Of a stretch of DNA of 41,605 bases, positions 2,193 to 27,370 are shown in pieces (within the stretch, counting starts at the first letter, position 1; every line of letters begins with the position of its first letter). The stretch is from Caldisericia bacterium (GTDB taxonomy: Bacteria; Caldisericota; Caldisericia; JAAYUI01): NCBI GenBank assembly GCA_017992555.1, contig JAGOOK010000015.1:1-41605 (forward strand), given 5' to 3'. Under the pieces are notes generated by a model. The model saw only the letters and a program-made list of their open reading frames with translations, had not been told where the DNA came from and made no database searches. Made by a program: the position numbers and the translations under genes.

Positions 2193-2329
2193 GTAGATTT
2201 ATTTTAATTTATCTGCAGAATATTGTTTAGAGTATCTTCCATTGAATACTTTATTAGTATATAAAATGTTTAGCTTTTTTTATAAAAGTACTATTGCTTA
2301 TAATTTGTAATCGATAAAATCTAACATTA

Positions 2330-22187: not shown

Positions 22188-22976
22188 CTAGTAACATGTA
22201 AGCTGAACACCTATTCTGTTTGCTTTTTCTATTGCCCTGAGTTTTTGGGCTTTTCTGAAATCGGTATTGGAGAGTAATCTCATTGCGTCATCAAAATTTA
22301 GACCGAGTTTTCTGTACGAAATAGCAAGGCTTTTTAACACTCTCGGATAGGGGTTCAAAAAATCCATCGAAAGGCCACAACCGATTGTTGCGGCAATCTC
22401 GATTATCCTGTCAACATTTGTAACGAGTGGTAATATCGGGGACATGAAAATCCATGTTGCCACACCTTTTTGTTTGAACATCTTCAAGGCATCGACTCTG
22501 GCGCGTATCGGTGCAGAGTCATCCTCAAAAGCTGTCCTGAGACACTCGTCATGGTAGGACATTGAAAATCCGACAGTCGGCCCATCAAATTTTGTTATAA
22601 GATCGACATCTCTGACCACAAGGGCAGATTTTGTCAGGATGTCTACTCTGCAATCGACCTTTGAAAGCAGTTCCAGACACGCTCTTGTTACCCCGAATTT
22701 TGCCTCAAGGGGTTGATAGGCATCTGTGGAGGTCGAAAAAACCACAGATTTGCCACTTGCCTTTTTTACCTGCTTCATCAAAACATCTGGCAGGTTGATT
22801 TTTGGATATACAAATCTTCCCCAGCGCTCCTTTTCATCAAGAAACCGGCACATGAATGTTGCATAGCAAAAGGAACACGCATGGGAACAGCCATAATAAG
22901 GATTTATCGAGTAATCACAGCCCTGGACCTTCGACTTTACAAGTGCCGATTTTGTAAGCCTGGCCTCTATTTTGAT
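22188..22976 (-). CDS. SPL-like radical SAM protein, non-canonical AUC start
   Basis: A 262-residue SPL-like radical SAM protein. The 4Fe-4S motif CSHACSFC (Cxxx-CxxC, Cys30/34/37 of the extended frame) follows the family signature DYSINPYYGC. The familiar FSTSTDAYQPLE and VDILTKSALVVRD segments come later. The first ATG (22853) lies after the iron-sulfur motif and would give a dead protein. The frame is open back to a stop just before GAGAGC, and it contains no ATG, GTG or TTG upstream of the motif. Family alignment puts the start at ATC (22976-22974), four bases after AGGGTGG and overlapping the end of the upstream gene. The gene therefore probably starts at a rare AUC and depends on coupling. 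Confidence 0.8.
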   Translation of the reverse strand: MKIEARLTKSALVKSKVQGCDYSINPYYGCSHACSFCYATFMCRFLDEKERWGRFVYPKINLPDVLMKQVKKASGKSVVFSTSTDAYQPLEAKFGVTRACLELLSKVDCRVDILTKSALVVRDVDLITKFDGPTVGFSMSYHDECLRTAFEDDSAPIRARVDALKMFKQKGVATWIFMSPILPLVTNVDRIIEIAATIGCGLSMDFLNPYPRVLKSLAISYRKLGLNFDDAMRLLSNTDFRKAQKLRAIEKANRIGVQLTCY

Positions 22977-23524
22977 CGTTCCACCCTGTCCTTTATATCT
23001 CTGGAGGCTCTCTCAAAATTTTCAAACTGACGCCAGTTATAGATGCAATAGGCCATAAAAAGCAACGTTGAGCCAAATATTGCCCACCCGGAGAAATCAT
23101 GGCTAAACCAGAGCGAGAACGCCGAAGCAACAAAAAACATTCCAAATACTATCGAAGCAAGGCCCCATGCAAATCTTGGGAAAGACTGCAGTTCATAGGC
23201 ATGGGCCGATAGTATTCTGGCCGCCTTGATTGCCTGGTTCATGGTTGGGCTCCCCTCAGGAAGGTCAAAGGAGCATTCTTTATATATTATTGTTGCACCA
23301 ATGGCACCAAAAAAAGCATCCACAAAATCTCTTGATATCTTGGCTTCCTTTGCCTTTGGATGGTTCACAAGGTATTGCTCACAGGCATTTTTATATTTTG
23401 TGGCTATCGCCTCGCAGGCAACCAGCGCCCACTGCCTGACTTTTGACGTGTCTGCAGATTTTATTGCCAGCTCACCTTTATAGGCAAGGACCAGGTATTC
23501 TGTAACTTCCGGATTTGTCTTCAT
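22967..23524 (-). CDS. Membrane protein of unknown function upstream of the SPL-like gene
   Basis: A 185-residue protein of unknown family. A soluble, helix-rich N-terminal half (ALVACEAIATKYKNACEQYL) is followed by a pair of transmembrane helices (about 120-162, FAWGLASIVFGMFFVASAFSLWF and WAIFGSTLLFMAYCIYNW) and a charged tail ending RVERSK. No SD precedes the ATG, but a promoter with a -10 ending six bases upstream predicts a leaderless mRNA. Its last codons overlap the proposed AUC start of the radical SAM gene by ten bases, so the two are likely co-translated. Confidence 0.8.
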   Translation of the reverse strand: MKTNPEVTEYLVLAYKGELAIKSADTSKVRQWALVACEAIATKYKNACEQYLVNHPKAKEAKISRDFVDAFFGAIGATIIYKECSFDLPEGSPTMNQAIKAARILSAHAYELQSFPRFAWGLASIVFGMFFVASAFSLWFSHDFSGWAIFGSTLLFMAYCIYNWRQFENFERASRDIKDRVERSK

Positions 23525-23803: not shown

Positions 23804-23831
23804 TTGACTTGCCCTGGTGCAAGGTTATGGT
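23804..23831 (+). promoter_or_regulatory. Leaderless-type promoter of the decarboxylase operon
   Basis: TTGACT (23804-23809), a 16-base spacer, TATGGT (23826-23831), then six bases and GTG at 23838. The -10 is weak (four of six matches), but the layout is the same as at rarA. Confidence 0.5.
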
Positions 23832-23837
23832 GACGAT

Positions 23838-25385
23838 GTGAAGAATCTAGATGATCTTATAAGAGAAAAAGACGAATTGCTTGCGAAAGCAAGCAATGAA
23901 ACGCCACAGGCCAGAGAATTCCAGGAGAAGAGGGGGAAATTGACGGCCAGAGACAGGATCAAGCTGTTCCTTGACCCAGAAAGTTTTGTCGAAACCGACA
24001 CTCTGGTCCAACACAGAAAAGACTACCCACAATCAGAGAAATTCGTCCCAGGGGAGGGTGTTATAACAGGTTATGGCACAGTAAATGGCAGGCTTGTTTT
24101 TGTCTTCTCCCAGGATTTTTCAATCATGGGAGGTTCCTTGTCAAAGATGCAGGGTGCAAAAATTGGTAAGATCATGGAAATGGCCTATCGCTCAGGTGCT
24201 CCGGTAGTTGGATTCAACGACTCCGGAGGGGCAAGGGTGCAAGAGGGTGTAGATGCTCTTTCAGGATATGGAAAGGTGTTCTACAGAAATTCCATATATT
24301 CAGGCGTCATCCCGCAGATAGCCATCATTGCAGGGCCATCCGCTGGCGGTGCAGCTTACTCTCCTGCCCTCACTGATTTCATCTTCACAATTGACGGGCT
24401 TACTGAGATGTTCATAACTGGCCCCCAAGTCATCGAATCTGTAACTGGTGAAAAACCCGACAAACAAACCCTCGGTGGCGCAAGAGTCCATGCCTCAAAA
24501 TCTGGCGTGACACATTTTATTTACAAATCGGAACAGGAATGCATCCAGTCAGTCAGGAGGCTCCTGTCATTCCTCCCACAAAACTGCAGACAGATGCCAC
24601 CACGCATCAAGGGCAATGACGATCCAAACAGGGCTTCAATGGCACTCAGGCAGATTGTTCCAGTTGAAGCAAACAAATCCTATGACGTTCGCAAGGTCAT
24701 CGCAGAAATAGTCGATGATGGCGATTTCATGGAAGTCCAGCCAGATTTTGCCAGAAACCTCACCATCGGTTTCGCAAGAGTGGACGGCTTCCCAATAGGC
24801 ATCGTCGCCAACCAGCCAATGTATCTTGCCGGCTGTCTTGACATCGATTCTTCCGACAAGGCCTCAAGGTTTATCAGAACATGCGATTCTTTCAATATAC
24901 CGCTCTTGAACCTCGTCGATGTTCCCGGTTTCCTCCCTGGAGTCAACCAGGAACATAACGGTATTATCAGGCACGGTGCCAAGATGCTCTATGCCTACGC
25001 TGAAGCCACAGTCCCAAAAATAACAGTCATTACCCGAAGGTCTTACGGCGGTGCCTATCTTGCCATGTGCTCGAAAGACATGGGTGCCGACGTCGTATTT
25101 GCCTGGCCACAGGCCAATATCGCCGTCATGGGCGCCGATGGGGCAGTCAAAATTCTTTACCATGACGAAATCAAAAACGCCCCAAATCCAGAAGAGAAAA
25201 CTAAAGAACTCGTCCAGGAATATGAAAGCTACCACTGTAACCCCTACGTGGCCGCCGAAAGGGGCTACATCGACTCGGTAATCAACCCTGAGGAGACAAG
25301 GGCAAGGGTGGCTTCATCACTGCACATGCTCCAGACAAAACAGCAGAGCATGCCGGAAAGAAAACACGGCAACATGCCGCTTTGA
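23838..25385 (+). CDS. mmdA: Carboxyltransferase alpha subunit of Na+-translocating methylmalonyl-CoA-type decarboxylase
   Basis: A 515-residue biotin-dependent carboxyltransferase of the crotonase fold, with two halves. The N-terminal half has ARDRIKLFLDPESF and GPSAGGAAYSPAL; the C-terminal half has VDVPGFLPGVNQEHNGIIRHGAKMLYAYAE and RRSYGGAYLAMCSKDMGADVVFAWP. These match MmdA and propionyl-CoA carboxylase beta. It transfers CO2 from the CoA ester to biotin on the carrier encoded downstream. I prefer the GTG at 23838 (MKNLDDLIREKDE): the promoter's -10 ends six bases before it, and no SD exists for it or for the GTG at 23817. Glutaconyl-CoA decarboxylase is a close alternative. Confidence 0.92.
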   Translation: MKNLDDLIREKDELLAKASNETPQAREFQEKRGKLTARDRIKLFLDPESFVETDTLVQHRKDYPQSEKFVPGEGVITGYGTVNGRLVFVFSQDFSIMGGSLSKMQGAKIGKIMEMAYRSGAPVVGFNDSGGARVQEGVDALSGYGKVFYRNSIYSGVIPQIAIIAGPSAGGAAYSPALTDFIFTIDGLTEMFITGPQVIESVTGEKPDKQTLGGARVHASKSGVTHFIYKSEQECIQSVRRLLSFLPQNCRQMPPRIKGNDDPNRASMALRQIVPVEANKSYDVRKVIAEIVDDGDFMEVQPDFARNLTIGFARVDGFPIGIVANQPMYLAGCLDIDSSDKASRFIRTCDSFNIPLLNLVDVPGFLPGVNQEHNGIIRHGAKMLYAYAEATVPKITVITRRSYGGAYLAMCSKDMGADVVFAWPQANIAVMGADGAVKILYHDEIKNAPNPEEKTKELVQEYESYHCNPYVAAERGYIDSVINPEETRARVASSLHMLQTKQQSMPERKHGNMPL

Positions 25386-25394
25386 GGTGACAAA

Positions 25395-25835
25395 TTGAAA
25401 AAAACATCAACCGGGCAAATAATTGCAAACATAATAACCGGGCTGGTTCTGGTTGGATTGATGGTCTTTGTTGTTGTGAGCTACATCCTCGACCCGGCAA
25501 AATATGGTGAAGGCGTTACAAAAGGCCTCGTTGCTTTTACAACGACGTTCATCATCCTCCTTGTTGTCACAGCTTCAATCTATCTCATCAAGGCAATAAC
25601 AGAGCGTTTTTCTGGCAATGGCTCATCAGCAAAAAGCACCGGCCTCACATCGCAAAACAAGGGGAAATCGGACAAACTCATGGCTGCAGTGATTGCTGCT
25701 GCCATCAACCAGTTCCAGTTCGATTCAAATGGCCAGATTGCTGTGGGCTTCAAGGTAAGGGAACTGTTCGATGTAAACACGCCATGGACAACATTTTCCA
25801 AAAATGATTACCACAAATCCGGAGGATCAAGATGA
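25395..25835 (+). CDS. OadG/MmdD-like membrane accessory subunit of the decarboxylase
   Basis: A 146-residue protein with two N-terminal transmembrane helices (about 8-30 and 43-66), then a basic Ser/Thr/Gly linker and a short C-terminal domain. It sits between the carboxyltransferase and the biotin carrier, the normal place of the gamma/delta subunit that assembles the decarboxylase on the membrane. It has two helices rather than the single helix of the classic OadG, so the assignment is by context and topology. It starts at TTG 25395 after GAGGTG, which overlaps the mmdA stop, and its stop overlaps the next ATG. Confidence 0.7.
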   Translation: MKKTSTGQIIANIITGLVLVGLMVFVVVSYILDPAKYGEGVTKGLVAFTTTFIILLVVTASIYLIKAITERFSGNGSSAKSTGLTSQNKGKSDKLMAAVIAAAINQFQFDSNGQIAVGFKVRELFDVNTPWTTFSKNDYHKSGGSR

Positions 25836-26221
25836 CCAGAAGATACAGAATAACTGTTGAAGGAAAAACATTCGAGGTTGAGGTTGAATCCATTGATTCA
25901 GTGCCAACGACACAGGCAATTCCACAACCACAAGTACAAGTTGCACCGACGCCACCTCCGCCACCACAGGAACCATCGGCAGGCCCCACAATGGCAAAAC
26001 CGGTTTCTGCAAAAGATGTCATTTCCCCAATCCCTGGAAAGATAAAGCAGATAGCAGTAAAAGCTGGCCAGACTATTGCCCCTGGAAACCTTCTCATGGT
26101 CATCGAAGCCATGAAAATGGACAACGAGATTCTTTGTGACGTCAATGCCACGGTAGCAGAACTCCTGGTCAAGGAAGGTGATTCTGTATCAATTGGCCAA
26201 CCAATCGTGAGGTATGCATAG
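25832..26221 (+). CDS. mmdC: Biotin carboxyl carrier protein of the decarboxylase
   Basis: A 129-residue biotin carrier. The C-terminal biotinyl domain holds the EAMKMDNEI motif, with Lys95 as the biotinylated residue. Before it comes a flexible Pro/Ala/Gln linker (PPPPPQEPSAG), and the N-terminal 30 residues form a small strand-rich segment that pairs with the partner subunits. Biotin carries the carboxyl group from the carboxyltransferase to the membrane pump. The start ATG overlaps the previous stop as ATGA after GGAGG. Its stop codon TAG is immediately followed by the ATG of the pump subunit. The biotin ligase is not in the window. Confidence 0.93.
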   Translation: MTRRYRITVEGKTFEVEVESIDSVPTTQAIPQPQVQVAPTPPPPPQEPSAGPTMAKPVSAKDVISPIPGKIKQIAVKAGQTIAPGNLLMVIEAMKMDNEILCDVNATVAELLVKEGDSVSIGQPIVRYA

Positions 26222-27370
26222 ATGGAATTCGTCACTGGCCTGAAAGGTATTTTCGACACATCGGGACTCCCCCTTTTCCTTCCAAGCTGGGGAAACTGGA
26301 TAATGATCGTGGTCGGACTCATCCTCATTGTCCTGGCTGTAAAATTCAAATTCGAACCGCTTCTTCTCATTCCAATATCTCTTGGCTGCATACTGGTCAA
26401 CATCCCGCTGCCAAAAGAACTTGCCTCTGCATGGATAGGCCAACCAGGTGTTGGTTTTCTGAGCATCATTTATGACGCCATAACAAAAACTGAGATAACA
26501 CCAATAATAATGTTCCTGTGTCTGGGGGCGCTGACGGATTTTAGCCCCCTTCTTGAGCGCCCGATAACATTCCTTCTCGGTGCCGCAGCTCAATTTGGTG
26601 TTTTTGTGGCTATATTTCTTGCACTTACGCTTGGTTTCAACATCAAGGAAGCGGCTGCTATTGGAATTATAGGTGGAGCCGATGGCCCGACAGCAATTTT
26701 CATTGCGCAGAAAATGGCACCCCAGATTCTTGGTGCGATAGCAGTATCGGCCTACTCATATATGTCACTGGTTCCAATAATATTGCCTCCTGTCATCAGA
26801 TGCATGACCACCAAAAAAGAGCGCACAACACGCATGGAACTGGCAAAACCGGTCTCAAAAACAACCAAGATGCTGTTCCCGATCGTCGTCACACTCGTGG
26901 TTGGAATCCTCCTCCCGTCATCTGTCCAGCTCATCGGAATGCTCATGGCAGGCAATTTCATAAAGGAATGCGGGCTTGTCGAAAGACTTTCAAATACCCT
27001 GCAGAACGAGCTTGTAAATATCAACACGGTATTCCTTGGACTGACTGTCGGCTCCACAATGGCCGCCCAGCAGTTCCTCACTCCAGCAACCCTCAAGATA
27101 ATCCTTCTCGGCTTCCTCGCTTTTGCCTTCTCGGCCGCAGGCGGAGTCGCCCTTGGAAAACTGATGTATGTTCTTTCTGGTGGCAAGATCAACCCGATGA
27201 TTGGTGCGGCAGGTGTCTCGGCTGTCCCGATGAGCGCAAGAACGGTCCAGAAGGAAGGCCAGAGGGAAGACCCTGGCAACTTCCTCCTCATGCCAGCAAT
27301 GGGCCCGAATGTGGCCGGTGTCCTTGGAACGGCAGTTGCTGCGGCAGCGCTTATTGCACTTCTCTCCTAG
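26222..27370 (+). CDS. mmdB: Na+-translocating decarboxylase beta subunit (OadB/MmdB/GcdB family)
   Basis: A 382-residue polytopic membrane protein of about nine helices that decarboxylates carboxybiotin and exports Na+. The hallmarks are GALTDFSPLLERP (about 102-114), GGADGPTAIF, whose Asp154 corresponds to the essential Asp of the OadB family, and the second conserved half beginning FLGLTVGSTMAAQQFLTPATL. Together with the three upstream genes it forms a complete four-subunit Na+ pump that would couple methylmalonyl-CoA decarboxylation to a sodium gradient, as in propionate-forming anaerobes. A strong terminator follows. Confidence 0.94.
   Translation: MEFVTGLKGIFDTSGLPLFLPSWGNWIMIVVGLILIVLAVKFKFEPLLLIPISLGCILVNIPLPKELASAWIGQPGVGFLSIIYDAITKTEITPIIMFLCLGALTDFSPLLERPITFLLGAAAQFGVFVAIFLALTLGFNIKEAAAIGIIGGADGPTAIFIAQKMAPQILGAIAVSAYSYMSLVPIILPPVIRCMTTKKERTTRMELAKPVSKTTKMLFPIVVTLVVGILLPSSVQLIGMLMAGNFIKECGLVERLSNTLQNELVNINTVFLGLTVGSTMAAQQFLTPATLKIILLGFLAFAFSAAGGVALGKLMYVLSGGKINPMIGAAGVSAVPMSARTVQKEGQREDPGNFLLMPAMGPNVAGVLGTAVAAAALIALLS

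Follow-up and report, generated by a model that had tools for sequence, protein, structure and literature searches.

To our knowledge, near-cognate start codons of the AUH kind are known outside infC from only a handful of genes. Initiation at AUC occurs in dsg of Myxococcus xanthus, which codes for the IF3 homologue. In Escherichia coli, infC, which is autoregulated by its product IF3, and pcnB both start at AUU (PMC1780047), and the part of a Staphylococcus aureus study considered here describes the conserved near-cognate starts of cvfC1 (AUU), ccpN (AUA) and infC (AUA), which have extended Shine-Dalgarno helices and give about 10-30% of AUG expression (PMC13009471). According to the sections consulted of the respective papers, IF3 discriminates against AUU, AUC and AUA (review PMC4611024), re-initiation in E. 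coli is reduced by additional IF3 (PMC2268962), and overlapping gene pairs with termination-reinitiation most often overlap by 4 or 1 nt (PMC10666635, PMC2268962). The bacterial AUC start in PMC10303841 is an engineered mutation. A literature search of open-access papers, mostly by listing and with subscription journals largely outside its scope, returned no natural bacterial gene with an AUC start; a search of the open-access literature, mostly by title and abstract, returned nothing on the radical-SAM gene described here or on start codons in Caldisericota.

This radical-SAM gene has its AUC codon in common with M. xanthus dsg, which is the IF3 gene itself, whereas the gene described here is not. 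It resembles E. coli infC and pcnB in having a near-cognate codon of the AUH kind, which serves low, IF3-sensitive initiation in E. coli and presumably also here, but the codon is AUC instead of AUU, and the gene codes for a radical-SAM enzyme, overlaps its upstream neighbour and is probably coupled to it (PMC1780047). With cvfC1 and ccpN of S. aureus it shares a conserved near-cognate start outside infC together with a Shine-Dalgarno helix; unlike in that set, which in the part of the report considered here includes neither an AUC case nor an overlapping pair, and which was demonstrated experimentally, the start is predicted (PMC13009471). As in the termination-reinitiation pairs treated in the relevant sections of PMC10666635 and PMC2268962, the overlap is short and includes the upstream stop codon, but it is 10 nt long and involves AUC. 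The kind of start represented by infC, pcnB and ccpN is known and is not a new mechanism, while this radical-SAM case appears to be new.

The radical-SAM frame and its candidate start codon

The radical-SAM frame is on the minus strand of the window (the whole stretch of 41,605 nucleotides that was analysed, which is contig C33 of the 1.5-Mb assembly of a Caldisericia MAG), extending from stop to stop over 23012..22188, with the terminal stop codon at 22190-22188. The features of the locus are the following, in the order of transcription of the minus strand.

22967..23524, minus strand: upstream gene, coding for a predicted membrane protein, with its TAG at 22969-22967; it has weak DUF2207_C similarity (E 0.00049), below the cut-off
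22982..22994, minus strand: Shine-Dalgarno region AAAGGA(CAG)GGTG, inside the upstream gene and invariant in 4/4 congeners
22967..22976, minus strand: 10-nt gene overlap ATCAAAATAG, where the upstream frame reads CGA TCA AAA TAG
22974..22976, minus strand: candidate initiation codon ATC (AUC), found in 5/5 genomes and in the initiator column of 14/28 distant relatives
22188..22976, minus strand: predicted radical-SAM coding sequence from AUC, 262 codons and a stop codon, with a spore-photoproduct-lyase-like fold; short-N-terminus relative of TIGR04470/PA0069/Rv2578c
22968..22970, minus strand: rival start ATA, overlapping the upstream TAG, with an aligned Shine-Dalgarno spacing of 8
22866..22889, minus strand: CxxxCxxC cluster-binding motif (C30, C34 and C37, numbered from AUC), invariant in 33/33 aligned proteins
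22851..22853, minus strand: first ATG of the frame, located 3' of the cluster motif

The initial annotation had claimed that ATG, GTG and TTG are missing at any usable start, and that the first ATG would remove the cluster motif. Both points hold, as the first of these codons is codon 54 of the open frame, the ATG at 22853-22851, which falls after C30, C34 and C37, and no family genome (5/5) has one before the motif. By itself, the lack of an NTG codon across about 53 codons would be met in roughly 8% of random frames, as estimated with uniform codons. It exceeds chance in that it recurs, with ATC in one and the same column, in 5/5 family genomes, and in that only three real genes among 181 conserved frames scanned in a congener were judged to be without a standard start. 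The ATC at 22976-22974 is indeed located four bases 3' of AGGGTGG (22987-22981), as had been noted, the strand, missing there, being minus. As to the overlap with the stop codon of the previous gene, it is correct that the genes overlap, by 10 nt, but the ATC does not fall on the TAG, from which it is separated by 4 nt.

The encoded protein matches Pfam PF04055 (8.3e-10) and NCBIfam TIGR04470 (3.6e-42). The score for the latter, 144.7 bits, is below the curated cut-off of 410, so that membership of this equivalog (radical SAM mobile pair protein B) is rejected and the protein is considered to be a relative. The AlphaFold model of the protein read from AUC has a mean pLDDT of 95; confidence is already high at residue 1 (pLDDT 96 for residues 1-10), and residues 2-3 form a strand. 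The best Foldseek match of this model is spore photoproduct lyase (4fhg; E 2.9e-8, TM 0.66 by query length), and with its CxxxCxxC motif and the radical-SAM barrel of the predicted model the protein can be placed with the spore-photoproduct-lyase-like radical-SAM proteins of the TIGR04470/PA0069/Rv2578c group. Solved structures were not found by sequence search, and the PADLOC matches (0.0011 and 0.0042) were weak and were disregarded. A standard gene call at this locus would delete the iron-sulphur cluster motif; gene callers limited to ATG, GTG and TTG truncate or lose genes with near-cognate starts.

For the genus, the 16S 3' end reads GGATCACCTCCTTTCT. In the calculated duplex of the Shine-Dalgarno region with this end, AAAGGA and GGUG are paired and CAG is bulged; its energy of -10.9 kcal/mol is stronger than for 140/178 genes. 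The aligned spacing is +2 for ATC, compared with a genome mode of -1 to +1 (98 strong sites), and 8 for ATA, which few genes resemble in this respect (spacings of at least 7 occur at 8/98 strong sites). For G004, the genome of the sister genus, the spacing is 1 for the first ATC and 7 for the second. The predicted Shine-Dalgarno helix therefore fits ATC and does not fit ATA, the next candidate.

Conservation of the start position

The family consists of five genomes, four from species of one genus, including that of the window, and one from a sister genus (G004); these are all that were found among the 54 phylum genomes searched. Over the radical-SAM frame, the three congeneric genomes are 88-96% identical to the window, and the radical-SAM proteins of the sister genus and the genus share 45-46% identity. 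In each of the five genomes a standard start is absent before the cluster motif and ATC is found in the same column. The sequence around the start is identical in all four congeners (ATAAAGGACAGGGTGGARCGATCAAAATAG). In G004 the upstream frame reads GTG ATT CGA TCG AAA TCA ATG CCA GAA TAG and the radical-SAM frame reads TCG ATC GAA ATC AAT GCC AGA, with the ATC in the same column as in the genus. The codons of the radical-SAM frame 5' of ATC vary in amino acid among the congeners (ESLQRYKGQGGT / KGLQGYKGQGGT / ESLQRDKGQGGA / QGFQGNKGQGGT), while the frame of the upstream gene stays conserved over the same stretch in the genus. The last amino-acid change (ACG/GCG) concerns the codon immediately before ATC. 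This free variation, which ends at ATC, indicates that coding begins at or after ATC. The first 100 nt of the gene are strikingly conserved by eye, but their synonymous difference is average (83/177 control genes have a lower value). Since such similarity among congeners is thus not unusual, it was given no weight as evidence, and the conclusion depends mainly on a single deep comparison, that of the genus with the sister genus.

The family-predicted start of the initial annotation was compared with an alignment of 33 proteins, including those of the window, the four other family members and 28 distant loci; these are 28 of the 29 distant related loci, L058 being left out, as were loci from a separate genome search. 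The alignment does not place the start elsewhere: the ATC column holds the initiator of 14/28 distant relatives, which, as the start of each distant relative was taken to be the standard start nearest the motif, is consistent with, and not independent of, that choice. The other 14 initiate one to three columns away, eight of them two and four of them three columns earlier, one of them one column later and one of them two columns later. In a further alignment (A1), which was the query for the searches of family genomes and solved structures, the N-terminus is one or two residues too short or too long in three rows. Taken together, no usable ATG, GTG or TTG is available, AUC is conserved at the initiator position of the orthologues, and a good Shine-Dalgarno sequence is present at normal spacing. 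By these sequence comparisons the position of the start at AUC is well supported, and we infer that initiation takes place there.

The gene overlap and the alternative readings

The upstream gene is present in 5/54 phylum genomes, which are those of the family, and in 5/5 it adjoins the radical-SAM gene as a separate frame. The two genes are on the same strand and overlap by 10 nt in the genus and by 22 nt in the sister genus; gene overlaps are common in this lineage (52/111 neighbouring pairs). The geometry is that expected of a termination-reinitiation pair, as the start is only a few nt from the end of the upstream gene, both genes share a strand, and the arrangement is conserved. On the plus strand of the window, 23817-27370 contains in a row frames for a carboxyltransferase, a small membrane protein, a biotin-carrier-like protein and a sodium-pump decarboxylase beta-like protein, which by reading only would be a decarboxylase operon.

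At the site of the start, the upstream frame reads CGA TCN (Arg-Ser), with the Ser and the CGA codon each conserved in 5/5 genomes, and the third base of this Arg codon is the A of AUC. An NTG codon in the radical-SAM frame would require TGN (Cys, Trp or stop) in place of the conserved Ser. The conserved Arg-Ser codons, which the initial annotation had not taken into account, constrain the start. It can be understood in this way why AUC has not been replaced by AUG, as NTG at this position would turn the conserved Ser of the upstream protein into Cys or Trp, and a conserved AUC kept from AUG by an overlapping frame is a concrete evolutionary reason for the persistence of a weak start. Of the three bases of AUC, the A alone is outside the upstream Ser codon; constraint on the upstream protein could suffice to retain the T and the C. 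CGA is a rare codon, making up 2.4% of the 3286 Arg codons of G002, a congener, and 6.7% of the 1884 of G004, so that the chance of CGA in both genera is about 0.0016 (a product, given Arg and with the genera taken as independent). Between the congeners G002 and G003, 45/71 CGA codons are kept.

In the reading that we consider highly probable, the radical-SAM gene is translated from the AUC at 22976-22974, in a manner that would be coupled to upstream termination, low and IF3-sensitive. Either the ribosome that has just completed the overlapping gene upstream or a newly arriving 30S subunit would be held by the AAAGGA...GGUG Shine-Dalgarno sequence, and the initiator tRNA would be placed on AUC, generating an ordinary, Met-initiated radical-SAM protein of 262 residues in low yield. 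As IF3 rejects AUC, abundant IF3 should lower the output, in the manner of infC. Weak expression and dependence on the upstream neighbour would likewise be expected by analogy with the published cases, and the AUC start is probably a way to keep the output low.

Four other explanations were weighed against translation from AUC. An error of sequencing or assembly that made ATC out of a standard start, as considered in the initial annotation, is hardly conceivable. The relatives are metagenome assemblies, two of which come from one study, but the same ATC occurs in assemblies from at least three projects, being present in three congeneric MAGs and one sister-genus MAG, and a base-call error is rejected because ATC sits in the same column of all five family genomes. 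The lack of a standard start would also suit a decaying pseudogene needing none. This is very improbable, as the frame is open in 5/5 genomes with the cluster motif intact, and in the comparison of G002 with G003 (88% protein identity) the whole frame passed the filter, in which synonymous differences are at least 1.2 times the non-synonymous ones.

It has also been considered that a programmed -1 frameshift at CAAAATAG, with the upstream ribosome slipping from AAA to AAA at the TAG, generates a membrane-anchored radical-SAM fusion protein. The radical-SAM frame is indeed -1 relative to the upstream gene, the P-site AAA can re-pair perfectly, a slippery-looking A AAA precedes the TAG in the genus (4/5 family genomes), and the two genes are adjacent in 5/5 genomes. 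Shine-Dalgarno-like sequences occur upstream of known -1 frameshift sites, and AGGGTGG is upstream of the slip site here. Nevertheless, such slippage is improbable, as the sister genus has the gene pair, again with no standard start, yet has no A AAA before its TAG, which is 12 nt further on. A downstream stimulatory structure is not predicted (z 0.56 for the 67 nt after the stop codon), each distant relative is a gene of its own with its start in or close to the ATC column, and a fused frame is not seen, the upstream gene being separate in all of the 5/54 phylum genomes that carry it. More generally, structured RNA with an Rfam match at the gathering score was not found in the whole window, and folding of three window stretches gives z values of 0.56 to 0.97, with no structure; the value for the sister genus is -1.8, which corresponds to an 8-bp hairpin in the first codons of the sister-genus gene (L115 of G004, 2211-2291, minus strand) that was not seen in the window. 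A start at the AUA at 22970-22968, coupled to the upstream stop codon through the overlap AUAG, is similarly improbable. This stop-start geometry is favourable and AUA is a known near-cognate start, as described for infC and ccpN of S. aureus in the part of PMC13009471 considered here, but the aligned spacing of 8 puts it in a sparsely populated class, the codon is two columns downstream of the ATC column, and in the sister genus it is replaced by ATC and no longer touches the stop codon.

Candidate near-cognate starts in the lineage and in the subfamily

The comparison with infC-type starts made in the initial annotation is apt, since AUC is likewise the start codon of the family's own infC, in 4/4 of the family genomes in which it was found (4/5). 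In G000, G002 and G003, infC has no standard start before the conserved N-terminus, and the site is AGGAGG TATGCA ATC; in G004 it is GGAGGTAAAT ATC. The calculated duplexes at these AUC codons are -13.5 (site of G000, G002 and G003) and -10.7 (site of G004). In G004, GTG and TTG codons are found further upstream in the open frame, which were judged to be too far from the family start. Across the phylum, 49/54 genomes have an infC match. Thirty loci were read (L156-L159, L213-L238), of which 18 matched the motif and form the basis of the count, the 12 non-matching loci being left out; on visual inspection, a Shine-Dalgarno sequence precedes ATC or ATT in 17/18 and ATA in L224.

The wider radical-SAM subfamily was surveyed at 97 loci (L001-L017 and L031-L110; L018-L030, having no motif, were left out), of which 22 had no motif match, four were duplicates, one contained X, 22 had a long N-terminus and 48 a short one. 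A standard start is found 20-31 codons before NPYxGC in 39/48 of the short-N-terminus loci, and the nine without it are the five of the family and L007, L009, L011 and L109. The last of these was judged to be misfiled, as it has a long N-terminus, with starts at -46/-39. L007 (G054, position 1501), a distant radical-SAM relative, has a CTG at the family start position (TAAGGAGTAAGGA) with the Shine-Dalgarno sequence AAGGAG; as its class is represented in the set by G054 alone, this CTG could be an error. In L009 (G052) and L011 (G050), the 51 codons leading up to the cluster motif contain no standard start (oriented positions 1384-1551). In these two loci the stretch before -24 appears to be non-coding (five synonymous and nine non-synonymous differences), and no clear Shine-Dalgarno sequence was seen before the ATT at -24. 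These sequences are no more than suggestive of a recurrent loss of the start in the radical-SAM subfamily.

For G002 and G003, 181 conserved frames were scanned (389 kb of G002), 50 of which were printed and judged by eye; the scan is blind to near-cognate starts that are closely followed by a shared in-frame NTG. Three start-less genes emerged, being the radical-SAM gene, infC and an SbcC/Rad50-like gene, together with one shadow ORF. The latter SbcC-like gene has CTG in G002 (C22:109312, L199) and G003 (C96:13229, L200), preceded by AAGGGTGGTGTAAT (duplex -13.4), and ATG in the same column in G004 (C13:30201, L201); G000 and G001 gave no full-length match. With CTG in both of these congeners and ATG at the corresponding codon of G004, the occurrence of near-cognate starts in the lineage extends to other genes. 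It is conceivable, albeit rather doubtful, that Caldisericia keep a small set of near-cognate starts controlled by IF3 (infC AUC, radical-SAM AUC, SbcC-like CUG), by which the IF3 level would tune enzymes of the repair or modification type, and that the radical-SAM subfamily has repeatedly lost its standard start (AUC; CUG in G054; none for 51 codons in G050 and G052), which would imply selection for very low expression. The frame flagged as start-less at G002 118562 lies opposite another frame and was rejected as the shadow ORF. The 180 frames kept start with ATG (114), TTG (32), GTG (31), ATC (2) and CTG (1).
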